A stretch of DNA of 64,000 nt from positions 1,674,001 through 1,738,000 of the forward strand of contig JABFRO010000001.1 in the NCBI GenBank assembly GCA_013141125.1, in the 5' to 3' direction. Numbering within the stretch: the first letter of the stretch is position 1; every line of letters starts with the position of its first letter. The notes under the pieces were generated by a model. That model was given only the letters and a program-made list of their open reading frames with translations. It had not been told where the DNA came from and searched no databases. Positions 5,612 through 14,181 of this stretch are shown here, piece after piece. A program made the position numbers and the translations under genes. Source of the DNA: Methylophilaceae bacterium. GTDB lineage: Bacteria; Pseudomonadota; Gammaproteobacteria; Burkholderiales; Methylophilaceae.

Positions 5612-7153
5612 TTGCCAACACCTTTCTACTCCCCGCTCGCCGCCACCCTCGGCCTTGACGATTACCCCGCCAGCTTTCCCCTTGCACGCTCATTAAAACG
5701 GCATATCCATTTTCATCTTGGCCCGACCAATTCCGGCAAAACCCATGAGGCTTTACTGGTGTTGCAGCAGGCCAAATCCGGCGTATATCTGGCACCCTTA
5801 CGCTTGCTGGCTATGGAGATACGTGATCGCTTAATAGAAGCTGGCGTGCCATGCAATCTGGTGACGGGCGAGGAACGGCAGCTAATGGCGGGGGCGCGGC
5901 ATACCGCTTGCACGGTGGAAATGATGCGGGCGGATGTGGAGGTGGACGTGGCGATTATCGACGAGATTCAGATGTTGCAGGATGCCGCGCGCGGCTATGC
6001 GTGGACGGCGGCGCTGATAGGCGCTCCGGCCAAACAGGTGTTTGTGTGCGGATCGGATGCGGTGACTGTGCCGTGCCTGCGCGCCATTGAAGCCATGGGC
6101 GAAACTTGTGACATCACGCGGCTGGAACGCAAAACGCCGCTGATACTGGAAAGCGAAAGTCTGAGCGGCGCGCGATATAGCCGCTGGAAGCTGAAAAAAC
6201 ACCTACGCCAGGGCGATGCCATCATTGCCTTTACGCGCAAGGATGTGCTGACCTTGAGCGCGCGCATTCGCCAATGGGGCTTGGGCGTGGCGAGTATTTA
6301 CGGCGCGCTGTCGCCGGAAGTAAGGCGCACCGAGGCCAGACGTTTTACCAGCGGTGAAGCCGGGGTTTTGGTGGCGACCGATGCAGTGGGTATGGGGCTT
6401 AATCTGCCAATTCGGCGCGTGGTTTTTTCCACCACGCACAAGTTTGACGGCATCGCCACGCGCGATTTAAATGCTACAGAAGTACGCCAGATTGCCGGTC
6501 GTGCCGGGCGTTACGGTATTTATCCCACCGGTTATGTGAATGCGTTTGAAGATGACGAGCTGCGGCATATCGACCATATGCTATCGACTTCAGACCTTGC
6601 CGATTTGCAAAAGCTGCCCATCACCCCCAACTTTACCCACATGCAAGCTTTATCCCACGCGCGGCACAGCAATAGAATCGGCGAACTGCTGGCTTTTTTC
6701 TCCGAACGCGTGGGCATTGCCAGCCCGATTTTTGCCATTGCCACGCTGGGCGTGCACGTTACCCAGGGGCATTTGATAGACGAACACGCGCCAGATTTAC
6801 CGCTGGCGCATAAATTCACTTTCTCCTGCGCGCCGGTCTCGCTGGATAAGGAGCATGAGCGCGATTACTTTCTGGCGTGTCTGAAAAGCTTTGCCGCCAA
6901 TCGCCAACGTGCTTTGCCGCTAGCTCCGGCGTGGCTGACTTCCACCAGCCCGCGCCATTTGGAGGAGGCGGAAAATCTGGGCAAGGATGTAAGCCTATAT
7001 GCCTGGCTTTCATTCAAATTTCCCACCGTGTTTTATCAGGGCGAGCAAGTGCAGCAACTGCGTAGCCGCATCAGCCGCTATATTGAACAGGCGCTGCTGA
7101 CACAGGCTGGCTTTGGCGATACCAGCAAAGAGATTTTGTATGGCTACCGCTGA
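5612..7153 (+). CDS. Suv3-type ATP-dependent RNA helicase
   Basis: A superfamily 2 helicase of the SUPV3L1/Suv3 group, best known from the mitochondrial RNA degradosome. Walker A is GPTNSGKT (residues 37-44), the Walker B/DExH-like box is DEIQ near residue 117, ATDAVGMGLNLP precedes the QIAGRAGR motif VI, and a Suv3-type C-terminal helical region follows, giving 513 residues. An in-frame TAG at 5606-5608 rules out an earlier start; TTG 5612 is the first possible start before Walker A and has AGGG about 9 bases upstream. The glycosylase gene overlaps its end by 14 bases, so the two are probably translated from one mRNA. The RNA substrate in bacteria is not established. Confidence 0.88.
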   Translation: MPTPFYSPLAATLGLDDYPASFPLARSLKRHIHFHLGPTNSGKTHEALLVLQQAKSGVYLAPLRLLAMEIRDRLIEAGVPCNLVTGEERQLMAGARHTACTVEMMRADVEVDVAIIDEIQMLQDAARGYAWTAALIGAPAKQVFVCGSDAVTVPCLRAIEAMGETCDITRLERKTPLILESESLSGARYSRWKLKKHLRQGDAIIAFTRKDVLTLSARIRQWGLGVASIYGALSPEVRRTEARRFTSGEAGVLVATDAVGMGLNLPIRRVVFSTTHKFDGIATRDLNATEVRQIAGRAGRYGIYPTGYVNAFEDDELRHIDHMLSTSDLADLQKLPITPNFTHMQALSHARHSNRIGELLAFFSERVGIASPIFAIATLGVHVTQGHLIDEHAPDLPLAHKFTFSCAPVSLDKEHERDYFLACLKSFAANRQRALPLAPAWLTSTSPRHLEEAENLGKDVSLYAWLSFKFPTVFYQGEQVQQLRSRISRYIEQALLTQAGFGDTSKEILYGYR

Positions 7154-7688
7154 TTCTAGCCATAGGCCTATCGTCCACAGCTTTGCACCGGTAGCACGCG
7201 CCGATGCCAAATGGTTGATTTTAGGCTCCATGCCGGGCCAGGTTTCACTCGCCCACCAGCAATATTATGCTCATGCCCGCAATCTGTTCTGGCCGCTGAT
7301 GGGCGAGTTGTTCGGCGCGGAAGCCGCGCTGCCTTATGCCTTACGCCTGACGCGCTTGCAGGAAAACGGCATCGCCTTGTGGGATGTGTTGCAGCAATGC
7401 GAACGCGCCAACTCTCTGGATGCGGATATAGTGGAAAGCTCCATCGTCACCAACGATTTTGCGAGTTTCTTTGCGCAGCATAAGGCTATCCGTCGCATCT
7501 GTTTCAACGGCAACAAGGCCGAGCAGGCATTTCGACGCTATGTTCTGCCGGGACTATCCTTGGTGCAGAATCTTGCCTTGACGCAAAATATTGAATTGAT
7601 AGCCTTGCCCTCAACCAGCCCGGCTAATGCTTCGATTCCGTTGGCCATCAAACGCCAGCGCTGGATGGAGGCTTTAAGTTCCGCTTGA
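7140..7688 (+). CDS. Hypoxanthine/uracil-DNA glycosylase, UDG family 6
   Basis: Predicted DNA repair glycosylase that removes deaminated bases, mainly hypoxanthine, in family 6 of the uracil-DNA glycosylase superfamily. The N-terminal LILGSMPG and the following QYYAHARNLFWPLMGELFG match the family, as do the central IRRICFNGNKA and the late LPSTSPAN motif. ATG 7140 is chosen (182 residues) because an AAAGAGA ribosome site lies at good distance; the frame stays open further upstream inside the helicase gene. It overlaps that gene by 14 bases. Confidence 0.85.
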   Translation: MATADSSHRPIVHSFAPVARADAKWLILGSMPGQVSLAHQQYYAHARNLFWPLMGELFGAEAALPYALRLTRLQENGIALWDVLQQCERANSLDADIVESSIVTNDFASFFAQHKAIRRICFNGNKAEQAFRRYVLPGLSLVQNLALTQNIELIALPSTSPANASIPLAIKRQRWMEALSSA

Positions 7689-7867: not shown

Positions 7868-8935
7868 ATGACCACTTTTACAATAACGATGCCCAGAGCT
7901 CTAGACCTAATCGCGGCACTAGAATTTCCTGCGAAGCTTCCAGCTCCAGTAGACTGTAAAATCTTAATCTTTGATTTTAAGAGCTCTTCGTTAATCGAAC
8001 CATTTGCAATGCTTATGATTTCAAGTGAAATATCTCGATATATGCATGAGCATCAAGATGTAGAATTTAAATGTTCCAACTATATGCATATGTCATACGC
8101 GGGACATATGGGATTCTTCAAGTCATTTGGTTTGGACTTTGGTAAGTCACCAGGTGAAGCTAATGGCAGCTCCAGATATGTTCCTCTGACCATTTACAGC
8201 ACTAGCGATATTGAGAAGAGCGCCGCCAGCAAAGGCATAGAAATAGGCGATGAAGTTGAAACAATTAGTCAACAATTATCTTATACGCTATGCCATATTA
8301 AGGAAGGTATATTATTCGATACACTTTCGTATTCTATAAGAGAAATAATGCGAAACGTGGTTGAACATAGTGCTGCCTCTCGATTTGGCATATGTGCTCA
8401 GTATTGGCCGTCTAAAAATAAAGCTGAGGTTGCTATTTTTGACAGAGGCATTGGAATTAAAAAAAGCTTATCTCAAAATCCTCATATTGATGCGTCTGAT
8501 GATAAAAGGTCATTAAATTATGCACTTATGCCAGCGGTATCTGGTAAGGCCTTTAAAGGCTCAAGGGTTAAACAAAAGGGGCATTGGGCTAATTCAGGTT
8601 TTGGCTTATACATGACGAATCGCATTTGTAGAAATGGTGGTACTTTTTTTATATGCAGTGGTGATACTGGTATGCTTTTAACGAAAAAATCAAATGCAAA
8701 AAGGTATTTCTCAACCAATCTTCATGGCACAGCTGTAAGAATGGTTTTAAAAACAGATCAGTTATCCTCATTAAAAGAGGCACTAGATACTTATAAAAAT
8801 GAAGGCTATGAGATTCAAAAAAGATATAAAGAAATAATTAATATTGACCCATCTTCTGCATCCCTGATGCTATCTACAGATTTTGATTTGTCAATATGGG
8901 GGAAAATTCTGGCCGCGTTGAAATTACGTAACTGA
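7868..8935 (+). CDS. STAS-like plus GHKL ATPase protein
   Basis: This 355-residue cytoplasmic protein has two parts. Residues 1-110 resemble STAS-like folds (KILIFDFKSSSLIEPFAMLM). Residues 130-300 form a GHKL ATP-binding domain: N-box around Asn163 (REIMRNVVEHS), G1 box DRGIGI at 192-197, and G2 box GFGLYM from Gly244. There is no sensor, transmembrane segment or phospho-accepting H-box, so it is not an ordinary histidine kinase; it resembles anti-sigma-type or stand-alone GHKL switches. The gene is clearly more AT-rich than its neighbours, has no partner gene, and is followed by a palindromic repeat, all consistent with horizontal transfer. No clear Shine-Dalgarno sequence precedes the ATG. 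Function unknown. Confidence 0.82.
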   Translation: MTTFTITMPRALDLIAALEFPAKLPAPVDCKILIFDFKSSSLIEPFAMLMISSEISRYMHEHQDVEFKCSNYMHMSYAGHMGFFKSFGLDFGKSPGEANGSSRYVPLTIYSTSDIEKSAASKGIEIGDEVETISQQLSYTLCHIKEGILFDTLSYSIREIMRNVVEHSAASRFGICAQYWPSKNKAEVAIFDRGIGIKKSLSQNPHIDASDDKRSLNYALMPAVSGKAFKGSRVKQKGHWANSGFGLYMTNRICRNGGTFFICSGDTGMLLTKKSNAKRYFSTNLHGTAVRMVLKTDQLSSLKEALDTYKNEGYEIQKRYKEIINIDPSSASLMLSTDFDLSIWGKILAALKLRN

Positions 8936-8950
8936 TAAAACGGAAATAAC

Positions 8951-9048
8951 GCGGTAGATTGGGTTAAACAATGTGAAACCCAACATTTGAAGCACTAATT
9001 GTTGGGGCTGCCCATTGGTTAACCCACCGTGCTTTGAGCGCACCCTAC
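8951..9048. repeat. Palindromic REP/MITE-like element, related to 1880-1970
   Basis: Outer arms GGTAGATTGGGTT and AACCCACC...CCCTAC enclose an inner pair, CCCAACA and TGTTGGGG. The arrangement (GTAG, TGGG, CCCAACA, loop, TGTTGGG, CCCA, CTAC) is the same as in the element at 1880-1970 but less regular. It fills the gap between the convergent GHKL gene and holA. Confidence 0.7.
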
Positions 9049-9053
9049 AAAAC

Positions 9054-10076
9054 TTACCGCGCTTTGCGCTTGCCCGCTCTGGCCAAGCCAAAACATAGTC
9101 TGGAGATTTCCAGCCAGGCATCGCCTTTTATCAAACCTTTGGCGGTTTTGTCGATTTCGGCCAGTTTCAGTAATGTGGCTTCCAGCTGGCGCAGGCTGAG
9201 GCGGTTTAGTGCGCGTTTCACCAAAGCCTGGCGATCACCGTAAATGCGTGCCTGTTGCATGGCGCTGCTCATGTTTTCACCACGGGTTTCGGCGGCTTTT
9301 AATCTGACCAGTGGTCGCAATACCCACATCAGCGGGTTCATCACGGCCACCGCCTGCGCGCCTTCATCCTGCAAGCCTTGCAGAATGCGCACCGTGCGTT
9401 CGGCATCGCCTGCCAGTACCGCTTCGCCCAGTTGAAAGGCATCGTAGCGCGAGACATTGAGCACGGCTTCGCGCACGGCTTCCGCCGTTAATACCCCTTG
9501 TGGAAACAGCAAGCCCAGTTTTTGAATTTCTTGATGTGCGGCCAGCAGATTGCCTTCGACCTGATGCGCGACAAATTCCAGCGTTTCCGCATCGGTTTGT
9601 TGCTGTTGCAGTGCCAGACGCTGGGCTATCCATTGCGGCAGTTGCGCGGCTTCCACTTCTTGCAGTGTGAGCGTAACCCCGGCATTTTCCAGTGCGCTGA
9701 ACCAGGCACTGTTTTTACCGTCCTTGTCCAACTTGGGCAGAATGATGACAACCACCGTATCCGGCAGTGGCTGGGCGGCGAGCGCCTGTAGCACCTTGCT
9801 ACCTTCAGTACCGGGTTTACCACTGGGGATGTTGATTTCCAGCAGGCGCTGGCTGGCAAACAGGGAGGTGGACTGGCCAAAGGCGCTAATTTGCTGCCAG
9901 CTGAAATAGCGATCCACCAACCAGCTGGTGCGTTCATCCACGCCTTGCACACGGGTAGCGGCGCGGATGGCATCCAGACTTTCGCGCTGCGCCAGCGGCT
10001 CGTCGCCGGTGAGCACATACAGTGGTTTCAGACTTTGTTGCAGGTGCTGGGCGAGTTGTTGCGGTGGCAGGCGCAT
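9054..10076 (-). CDS. holA: DNA polymerase III delta subunit
   Basis: The delta subunit of the clamp loader, which opens the beta sliding clamp during replication. The 340 residues are typical in length. The N-terminal clamp-binding and AAA-like region includes PLYVLTGDEPLAQRESLDAIR and a delta-type LLEINIPSGKPG; the C-terminal collar domain holds FQLGEAVLAGDAERTVRILQGL. The Walker A lysine is lacking, as is normal for delta. It is the third gene of a leuS-lptE-holA run, 14 bases after lptE. Confidence 0.95.
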   Translation of the reverse strand: MRLPPQQLAQHLQQSLKPLYVLTGDEPLAQRESLDAIRAATRVQGVDERTSWLVDRYFSWQQISAFGQSTSLFASQRLLEINIPSGKPGTEGSKVLQALAAQPLPDTVVVIILPKLDKDGKNSAWFSALENAGVTLTLQEVEAAQLPQWIAQRLALQQQQTDAETLEFVAHQVEGNLLAAHQEIQKLGLLFPQGVLTAEAVREAVLNVSRYDAFQLGEAVLAGDAERTVRILQGLQDEGAQAVAVMNPLMWVLRPLVRLKAAETRGENMSSAMQQARIYGDRQALVKRALNRLSLRQLEATLLKLAEIDKTAKGLIKGDAWLEISRLCFGLARAGKRKAR

Positions 10077-13230: not shown

Positions 13231-14136
13231 TTAGCCATTTGCATGACCAGAGGACTTCCTCTTTTTGAGTACTACTTGAAGCTCTTTGTCATTTTCCAAT
13301 ACCAAAGCTAAGAACTTAATTTTCGTTTGGCCTTTTAACACTTCATTTTTTTGCTTGAAGAAATTGTCATCTCCTTTGAACTCAAGTGTTGGAGCCTGAA
13401 AAGCGCGACCTTCAGCAAACATAAAAGAAAGTTTCTTTTTTTGGTATTCGGACTCTGGTTTTCTCTTAGATAACTCAGGAAGGTCGTTGATTGCTTGAAC
13501 CATATCTTGAGTTGCATCAAGGCCAATTGCGGATCGAAATTGGTAGTTAAGATATTGCTCGAGGCCATTGATTACCGGCTTTTTATACCATGTTACCTCA
13601 TAATAGATACGGTTCTCGTTTTGAACTAACTCTTCAAGTTCCGAATCCAAGGCCTCGTTGACAAACTTGAACATGCCACTTTTAGGATTTTCAATTAGCA
13701 ATAGCTCATGAGCTCTTCGTTGAACTTGTTCCGCCATTTTGTATTGCAAGTTGAATTCGGCGTAAAGCCCAACAATCCAATCGCTCAAATTTTTTGCGAC
13801 TTGAACCTGTCCTGAATTTCCGAAGCGCTCAAGTTCCCTTGTATATTTCTGGTAAGACTCCAATGACTCTTGAAGGTTTGTGTAGCTCGGCTTAAGCTCG
13901 TAAGTTGTTAGGGCATAACCTTTCCCGAGTTGAGATTGGAGTTCTGAGTACGCCAAGTTTATTCTCTCTAACTCGACAGCACTTTTGTCGTAAAGCTGCT
14001 TATGCAATTCACCGATATATTGTTTTTGTCTATTTTTCTCATCGAAATAGTCTTTTCCAAGAAAACCAGAGGCGGTCAAAGCCGCCATCACGACCGCTGT
14101 AATGATGTTATTCCGAAGCTCTTTATTTATTGTCAT
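13231..14136 (-). CDS. Hypothetical protein with one N-terminal membrane segment
   Basis: From ATG 14136 it has 301 residues (TTG 14160 would add eight). Residues 8-26 (NNIITAVVMAALTASGFLG) form a single membrane anchor. The rest is highly charged and predicted helical, with probable coiled coil around residues 30-150 and a Lys-rich C-terminus ending KKRKSSGHANG. No domain or enzyme motif is recognised. The gene is AT-richer than leuS and cca on either side and interrupts an otherwise ordinary neighbourhood, so it may be an acquired gene. Confidence 0.7.
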   Translation of the reverse strand: MTINKELRNNIITAVVMAALTASGFLGKDYFDEKNRQKQYIGELHKQLYDKSAVELERINLAYSELQSQLGKGYALTTYELKPSYTNLQESLESYQKYTRELERFGNSGQVQVAKNLSDWIVGLYAEFNLQYKMAEQVQRRAHELLLIENPKSGMFKFVNEALDSELEELVQNENRIYYEVTWYKKPVINGLEQYLNYQFRSAIGLDATQDMVQAINDLPELSKRKPESEYQKKKLSFMFAEGRAFQAPTLEFKGDDNFFKQKNEVLKGQTKIKFLALVLENDKELQVVLKKRKSSGHANG

Positions 14137-14181
14137 AGTGTGAAAATCAACTCCAAACAAACATCATTTTGTAATGACAAT

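Follow-up and report, generated by a model that had tools for sequence, protein, structure and literature searches.

We identified a stand-alone gene in a Methylophilaceae genome whose 355-residue product almost certainly, given its predicted structure, joins an N-terminal STAS domain to a GHKL domain of the anti-sigma type, and whose nearest characterised proteins are the kinases CapK and VapK. The protein falls on a well-supported side of its family tree whose members have no detected STAS partner, and many of these relatives are carried singly by prophages, plasmids and islands. We regard this partnerless clade as a variant form of CapK/VapK kinase and not as a new category. The gene lies in the window, the whole 64,000-nucleotide stretch of contig JABFRO010000001.1 that we analysed, and the features considered here are as follows (window positions, strand, feature, basis):

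7113-7688, forward strand, UDG-superfamily gene, upstream neighbour (Pfam UDG, E 1.1e-10)
7868-8935, forward strand, whole gene for the 355-aa STAS-GHKL protein, P0001 (ORF call, genome search, model)
7868-8137, forward strand, STAS domain, residues 1-90 (VIA-align)
8171-8761, forward strand, GHKL ATPase/kinase domain, residues 102-298 (VIA-align)
8339-8371, forward strand, N box, R158-E159..R162-N163..E166-H167-S168 (conserved columns)
8441-8455, forward strand, G1 box, D192-x-G194-x-G196 (conserved columns)
8591-8605, forward strand, G2 box, N242-S-G244-x-G246 (model, conserved columns)
8726-8731, forward strand, G3 box, G287-T288 (conserved columns)
8771-8932, forward strand, C-terminal extension, residues 302-355 (alignment; model helices 302-320, 328-336 and 341-350)
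8849-8875, forward strand, tail motif, P328-S329-S-A-S332-L-M-L-S336 (alignment)
9054-10076, reverse strand, holA (DNA polymerase III delta), downstream neighbour (Pfam)

The sequence-only reading of this DNA had described a STAS-like N-terminus fused to an intact GHKL ATP site with no H-box, and had suggested structure prediction and fold comparison as the check. An AlphaFold2 model of the window protein built on 17 sequences (mean pLDDT 87.4, pTM 0.87) bears out this description and predicts a STAS domain followed by a SpoIIAB-like GHKL domain. VIA-align comparison of the model matches residues 1-90 to RsbS (6jhk, Z 8.3, 2.5 Å over 88 residues) and to the STAS domain of prestin (5ezb, Z 8.2), with the first STAS strand already present at residue 3, and matches residues 102-298 to SpoIIAB (1til/1l0o, Z 12.8, 2.8 Å over 134 residues) and to the RsbV/RsbW entry 6m36 (Z 9.0). 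Pfam reported nothing on the window protein but a weak HATPase_c_2 match (E 0.015) and no HisKA or H-box domain at E ≤ 1, the N-terminal part having the STAS fold. Residues E159, N163, H167, D192, G194, G244 and G246 of the ATP site are invariant in all 47 aligned relatives, and G196, G287 and T288 are kept in 46, 46 and 44 of the 47, respectively. The loop at residues 230-237, just N-terminal of the G2 box, has low model confidence and is probably the ATP lid. Around the place of the classical acceptor serine, which we take from SpoIIAA-type proteins, the STAS domain carries P45-F46-A47, and the alignment columns hold no conserved serine. PDB matches of residues 260-352 to eIF3a (best E 0.0017) were judged compositional and set aside.

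The open reading frame runs from an ATG at 7868 to a stop at 8935 and is the sole match to itself in its own 3.2-Mb genome. Its deviant composition, already remarked on from the letters alone, is confirmed by 37.2% GC and 30% GC3 against medians of 52% and 56% for the 44 non-overlapping window ORFs of at least 150 aa, among which it has the lowest GC. Since the GC drop begins at about 7740 and the normal level is regained near 9000, the islet hardly extends beyond the gene itself. The proposed repeat border was not recovered: the 118 bp 3′ of the gene have no second genome match at E ≤ 0.01, within the window a 32-base piece has a single occurrence and a 14-base piece is no more frequent than chance predicts, and around the gene there are short imperfect repeats only. 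The immediate neighbours are housekeeping genes and, as the same reading had it, no partner is obvious next door. We do not think that the UDG-superfamily gene serves the window kinase as a partner, and no VapC-like PIN toxin lies beside the gene, whose neighbours are this UDG-superfamily gene and the opposite-strand holA. Beside the islet, a bacterial Suv3-type RNA helicase gene (5612-7153, forward strand; Pfam DEXQc_Suv3 2.8e-56 and SUV3_C) adjoins the UDG-superfamily gene.

Gene order downstream of the islet is conserved among relatives. Visual comparison of the first 40 residues puts a gene of a single family 3′ of holA at 16 of 19 other loci, with the family gene not seen at the remaining three (L101, L102 and L109). 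One of these post-holA genes was checked and is an aldehyde-dehydrogenase-family gene (Aldedh in Pfam), presumably proA by gene order. The proA-like gene of the window's own genome is on a different contig (G000:C2:90972-92222) and the islet occupies its post-holA place (boundary 9053), which sets the islet at a break in conserved gene order and for that reason makes a clean empty site unreadable in relatives. Elsewhere in the window, a second AT-rich orphan ORF (13231-14160, reverse strand) has 39.7% GC, the second lowest of the 44, gives nothing above curated cut-offs in profile searches, and has as neighbours an 827-aa ORF, by eye leuS, and a gene of the poly(A) polymerase family.

We collected relatives from genomes at E ≤ 1e-10 (matches, own genome counted, in 2 of 187 genomes of the family, 6 of 399 of the order and 5 of 369 of the class) and, for the phylum, at E ≤ 1e-8 with a 17-row alignment (19 of 398 genomes), together with one genome contig, 7 plasmid records, 3 phage records and viral contigs, and dropped repeat fetches of the same place before counting. 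Carriers span Pseudomonadota, both environmental members and E. coli prophages, to a Coprococcus phage, and sequence relatives in phages include PHROG families 3364 (E 1e-24) and 5816 (E 2e-7), from which we borrow no mechanism because neither has an assigned function. A tree of 47 members, built on the STAS-GHKL core with the tail excluded, divides them on one branch (support 97/92; 96% of 200 bootstrap trees) into 31 that include the window protein and 16 on the other side; several long-branch rows are unsure in placement. An earlier quick tree of 51 rows with the tail included places the same 31 on one side (support 97); its four further distant rows (L043, L044, L045 and L046) were dropped from the 47-row tree. 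Loci L006, L051 (at a contig edge) and L064 were excluded from the trees and kept in the flank search, where none has a DUF4325 match.

Members on the two sides of this branch differ in whether a STAS partner is encoded with the kinase. The 16 partnered relatives carry a DUF4325/STAS domain either adjacent (9) or fused (7); they were chosen for having a partner, and because ten of them supplied the DUF4325 profile these match it by construction, while the profile itself found six (L035, L036, L037, L038, L042 and L052). When this profile was run over all flanking frames of 40 aa or more, 0 of the 31 full-length members on the window side had a DUF4325/STAS match, and leave-one-out trials recovered 9 of 10 known partners at E ≤ 0.0011 and the tenth at 0.84. 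The scan covered the first 20 kb of the window and, at 33 other partnerless-type loci, at least 1.5 kb on both sides for 23 and less for 10, so contig ends could hide a few partners. A CapS-type STAS-wHTH partner would escape the DUF4325 profile, and none was found by Pfam on selected neighbours or by shared-neighbour clustering. Among the distant rows, L044 has a weak DUF4325 neighbour (E 0.022), and L043, L045 and L046 have no DUF4325 in flanks of roughly 1.5 kb and by eye no tail, which indicates that partner loss is not always paired with a tail.

No other recurrent partner family emerged from the neighbourhoods. Clustering of 290 flanking ORFs (at least 70 aa, within 4 kb) from 34 loci gave only two families common to at least three loci. 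One is a recombinase family (four loci), with two members recognised as recombinase or integrase genes; the other consists of small ORFs (three loci), one of them annotated as a helix-turn-helix regulator. Families found in just two loci came from L058/L066, which are nearly identical prophages, and from L075/L076. The upstream neighbours that could be identified are mutually unrelated (gamma-glutamyltranspeptidase, 3-hydroxyacyl-CoA dehydrogenase, ferrochelatase, reverse transcriptase, ribonucleotide reductase and phage integrase). The sequence-only reading had held that homologues always sitting beside a STAS or sigma-factor gene would mark the gene as a broken known module; a STAS gene or domain accompanies the 16 distant relatives, beside nine and fused in seven, and none of the 31 on the window side, in agreement with its proposal of a stand-alone module. 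With no DUF4325 match in the examined flanks of all 31 and no other recurrent partner family, the gene does not look like a broken known module, and on the tree split and active-site conservation we rejected a broken CapK/VapK module.

Members of the partnerless side share a C-terminal tail of 34-58 extra residues after the GHKL domain, and its serine-motif part is confined to this side of the tree. The motif [AP]SxxS/T, defined post hoc from the sequences themselves, is present in 29 of 31 partnerless tails, where shuffling predicts 2.1, and in none of the 16 partnered members, where it predicts 0.6; the two partnerless exceptions are L049 and L065. At individual positions, S329 is serine in 30 of 31 partnerless versus 0 of 16 partnered proteins and S332 in 27 of 31 versus 1 of 16; these are the only serines outside the GHKL domain kept in at least 26 of the 31. 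Two positions within the GHKL domain also track the split, R162 beside the catalytic asparagine (31/31 partnerless versus 2/16 partnered) and W180 (31/31 versus 0/16, with Y, F or H in the partnered proteins). The tail has low confidence in the window model (pLDDT about 58-66), and in a second model, of the prophage member L058 (pLDDT 89.8), a C-terminal tail helix is predicted at pLDDT about 82. Because S329 and S332 are the sole serines so conserved outside the GHKL domain and the STAS domain has none near the usual acceptor place, the tail is the candidate for an acceptor within the protein but away from its catalytic domain; that it is in fact the phospho-acceptor is a guess.

Comparison with CapK and VapK links relatives of the window protein to kinases that act on STAS substrates. 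According to excerpts of Chambers et al. (EMBO J 2026, PMC13373217), which describes CapK with CapS and VapK of VapKSC, CapK is an HTH-STAS-GHKL protein and DNA-damage sensor that is activated by ssDNA and phosphorylates the adjacently encoded STAS repressor CapS, with capS directly after capK in 443 of 443 reported cases. The predicted ssDNA site of CapK in the same excerpts is the groove between STAS and GHKL domains, supported by a mutant, where an aromatic residue (W68/F54) is found and W68 is the CapK contact to ssDNA; VapK is a STAS-GHKL protein acting with VapS and the VapC toxin in an operon that protects against a phage. The accessions given there are WP_001567866.1 for CapK and WP_135559716.1 for VapK. 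The window protein resembles CapK in its order of STAS then GHKL kinase, its anti-sigma-like fold and its family's association with immune loci, but lacks the N-terminal HTH and the following capS and has instead a serine-containing C-terminal tail. It shares with VapK a STAS-GHKL architecture without HTH, yet is encoded alone, whereas VapK is encoded with the STAS protein VapS and the VapC toxin. A candidate counterpart of W68/F54 is F46, which is phenylalanine in 25 of 31 members, the six exceptions having A, Q, S, M, G or T. A comparable groove in the window protein might serve as the sensor that the sequence-only reading had not seen. The DUF4325 partner of L050 weakly matches VapS of PDB 9Z7O (E 0.016), and the VapS stretch in turn finds a DUF4325-annotated gene, again weakly (E 0.06), and the gene right after the ATPase gene in phage Javan172 (E 6e-3), which a DUF4325 profile built without it recovers at 7e-8. 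These weak VapS matches and the shared architecture suggest that relatives of the window protein belong to a world of kinases paired with STAS substrates. We found no description of the partnerless group in the open-licence PMC literature among the matches listed.

Other known systems share parts of this architecture. SpoIIAB and RsbW have the same GHKL fold, with SpoIIAB the best structural match and RsbW at Z 9.0, but in the excerpts of PMC13373217 they are single-domain proteins that work with a sigma factor and a STAS antagonist; in the window protein GHKL is fused to STAS and neither kind of gene is a neighbour. VcSduA, a Shedu protein with a GHKL N-terminal domain (PMC12137116), is likewise a single-gene anti-phage protein with a GHKL ATPase domain, but has a PD-(D/E)xK nuclease (DUF4263) that the window protein lacks, and the main text of that paper makes no mention of STAS. 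The PADLOC profile PDLC02567 (DISARM DrmA) matches the window protein through positions 64-281 of 1750 (E 4.4e-11). DrmA is an SF2 helicase of about 1200 aa, and we rejected this identity because the window protein has 355 aa and no Pfam helicase family. We also rejected a link to DISARM: DrmA was matched in 3 of 150 genomes at profile positions 662-1726, 991-1396 and 1502-1608, outside the relevant region, and the family search was also positive in two named control genomes. In four DrmA-type proteins the window-protein profile found nothing significant (best E 0.36), and with the DrmA matches falling outside the region we treat the PDLC02567 match as a profile oddity. The PDLC02567 profile may contain a fusion or foreign sequence.

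We examined the genetic context of the relatives for mobile elements and defence genes. Eight viral-contig loci, at which ten proteins were tested, have tail, head, portal, terminase, replication, fibre and integrase genes as neighbours. Elsewhere the kinase lies alongside a type III restriction-modification pair (L047), a short prokaryotic Argonaute (pAgo) with a PADLOC ZacC helicase (L005), BrnT/BrnA (L004), a DNA methylase (L003), or an integrase with a nicking-endonuclease-like gene (L025); L002, L019, L020, L023 and the window copy adjoin housekeeping genes. PADLOC, at its stated limits, gave no match for neighbours of L002, L003 (272-aa gene) and L020, and was negative for two of three L021 proteins, the L025 integrase, two L049 proteins, one L048 protein and 7 of 10 proteins of a further set, including 3 of 4 from the E. 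coli ET490 island; its ABC-F (L026) and reverse transcriptase (L024) matches were judged generic. Because these lookups covered selected loci and neighbours with no control set and many were negative, we claim no enrichment for defence. The sequence-only suggestion of a defence or regulatory module thus holds in part: prophage cargo, a prophage slot shared with a TIR gene, and restriction-modification, pAgo, Shedu and Dpt neighbours of some relatives speak for it, whereas the housekeeping neighbours of the window copy do not.

Several individual loci are worth recording. An Acinetobacter plasmid copy (L006, 5168-6453) is truncated beside an ISAba22 transposase gene and immediately follows a gene annotated with a Shedu SduA domain. 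One viral-contig copy (L064, 5983-7774) is split into frames and has a second partial GHKL copy in tandem. On another viral contig (L056, 4240-5859), a 539-aa protein with no Pfam or PADLOC match is encoded upstream of the kinase ORF, adjoining and co-directional.

The explanation we favour, and hold tentatively, is that the window gene encodes a self-contained serine kinase of the CapK/VapK kind, carried as single-gene cargo by phages, plasmids and islands for an anti-phage or stress response. The kinase would be held inactive until a signal arrives; this signal, by analogy ssDNA or some other sign of DNA damage or phage attack, would bind between the STAS and GHKL domains, and the activated enzyme would use ATP to phosphorylate a serine. 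As no external STAS acceptor is encoded alongside, the acceptor would most likely be the C-terminal tail, either of the same chain or of the other chain in a dimer, or, failing that, some common host protein, and the outcome would most likely be growth arrest or an anti-phage response that benefits the carrier element. Kinship with CapK and VapK makes kinase activity likely and, by analogy with CapK, ssDNA sensing possible; we infer that defence is the most likely use of the partnerless kinases. A more specific form of this reading is doubtful: a one-gene immune switch in which the protein's own serine tail replaces the STAS acceptor of CapKS and VapKSC, so that phage nucleic-acid sensing, phosphotransfer and effector output would all reside in one chain of about 330-380 residues. 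The 2026 description of CapK and VapK has each kinase paired with a STAS substrate, and here the same architecture has a tail in place of a detected adjacent substrate; if the tail is the acceptor, the family shows a partner-switching pair collapsed into one protein. S329, or its E. coli counterpart, and the E. coli carriers are defined handles for testing the acceptor idea.

Two rival readings, each rather unlikely in our judgement, keep the kinase and differ in what it acts on or for. The partner could be supplied in trans, with the kinase phosphorylating or sequestering a host STAS protein, or a sigma factor in the manner of SpoIIAB and RsbW, and the element thereby reprogramming its host, as might be expected of a protein whose nearest fold is the anti-sigma kinase SpoIIAB. 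The window's own genome has one short STAS ORF over the PF01740 cut-off, a 107-aa frame (G000:C4:1766990-1767286), besides a 694-aa ORF over the same cut-off, but no DUF4325 over cut-off; the conserved tail would stay unexplained, and with carriers as far apart as Pseudomonadota and a Coprococcus phage the target in trans would need to be very general. Alternatively, the gene could regulate its mobile element, controlling lysogeny, induction or plasmid functions upon DNA damage rather than defence. Many members do come from viral contigs, a CI/S24-type repressor gene ends 8 bp upstream of the kinase at L074, and CapK senses DNA damage (excerpts of PMC13373217), but the place in phage genomes varies (near portal, tail, replication or integrase genes), the kinase is opposite in orientation to both neighbours at 8 of 34 loci, other genes fill its slot in related E. 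coli prophages, and some chromosomal copies, the window copy included, have no adjoining phage gene.

Still less probable is an ATP-driven conformational clamp in the manner of MutL or Hsp90, with the tail as a structural latch and no kinase activity. The ATPase domains of MutL and topoisomerase also align with the model (VIA-align Z about 8-10) and the E159/N163 pair would suit hydrolysis equally, but SpoIIAB is well ahead at Z 12.8 and the STAS-GHKL pairing matches that of serine-phosphorylating kinases (excerpts of PMC13373217). The reading of the gene as a relic, a capK or vapK gene decaying after loss of its partner, is largely refuted and very improbable: although distant relatives have a DUF4325 partner and broken copies exist (L006 and L064), all 31 full-length members keep the catalytic residues, some at identities to the window protein as low as 21% (L023), and the tail motif is common to 29 of them.

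Of 5426 complete E. coli genomes, 11 have a homologue with 85-87% DNA identity to the L058 gene, in every case on the chromosome, and 8 of these 11 share one prophage site flanked by a VRR-NUC gene and a DNA polymerase gene. Among 50 listed of 158 matching records, this slot holds the kinase in 8, a TIR-domain gene in 3, a YfbU-family gene in 3, and ANR and DUF4406 genes in 36. The TIR protein of one strain matches the Pfam CAP12/Pycsar TIR family (5.8e-31) and the PADLOC candidate PDC-S35 (1.7e-109), and a SIR2-family gene lies across the polymerase from the TIR gene in that strain. In another E. coli carrier the kinase is part of a tRNA-Thr-associated island, and dptF of a Dpt restriction set lies about 4 kb away. 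Hotspots of antiviral genes are described within P2-like phages and P4-like satellites in excerpts of PMC9122126, and the uncharacterised occupants of the VRR-NUC/DNA polymerase slot are candidates for defence genes. Examples of the slot are found at L115 (8671-12100), L118 (2026-4916) and L119 (2384-3450), one variant of which carries YfbU together with an uncharacterised gene.
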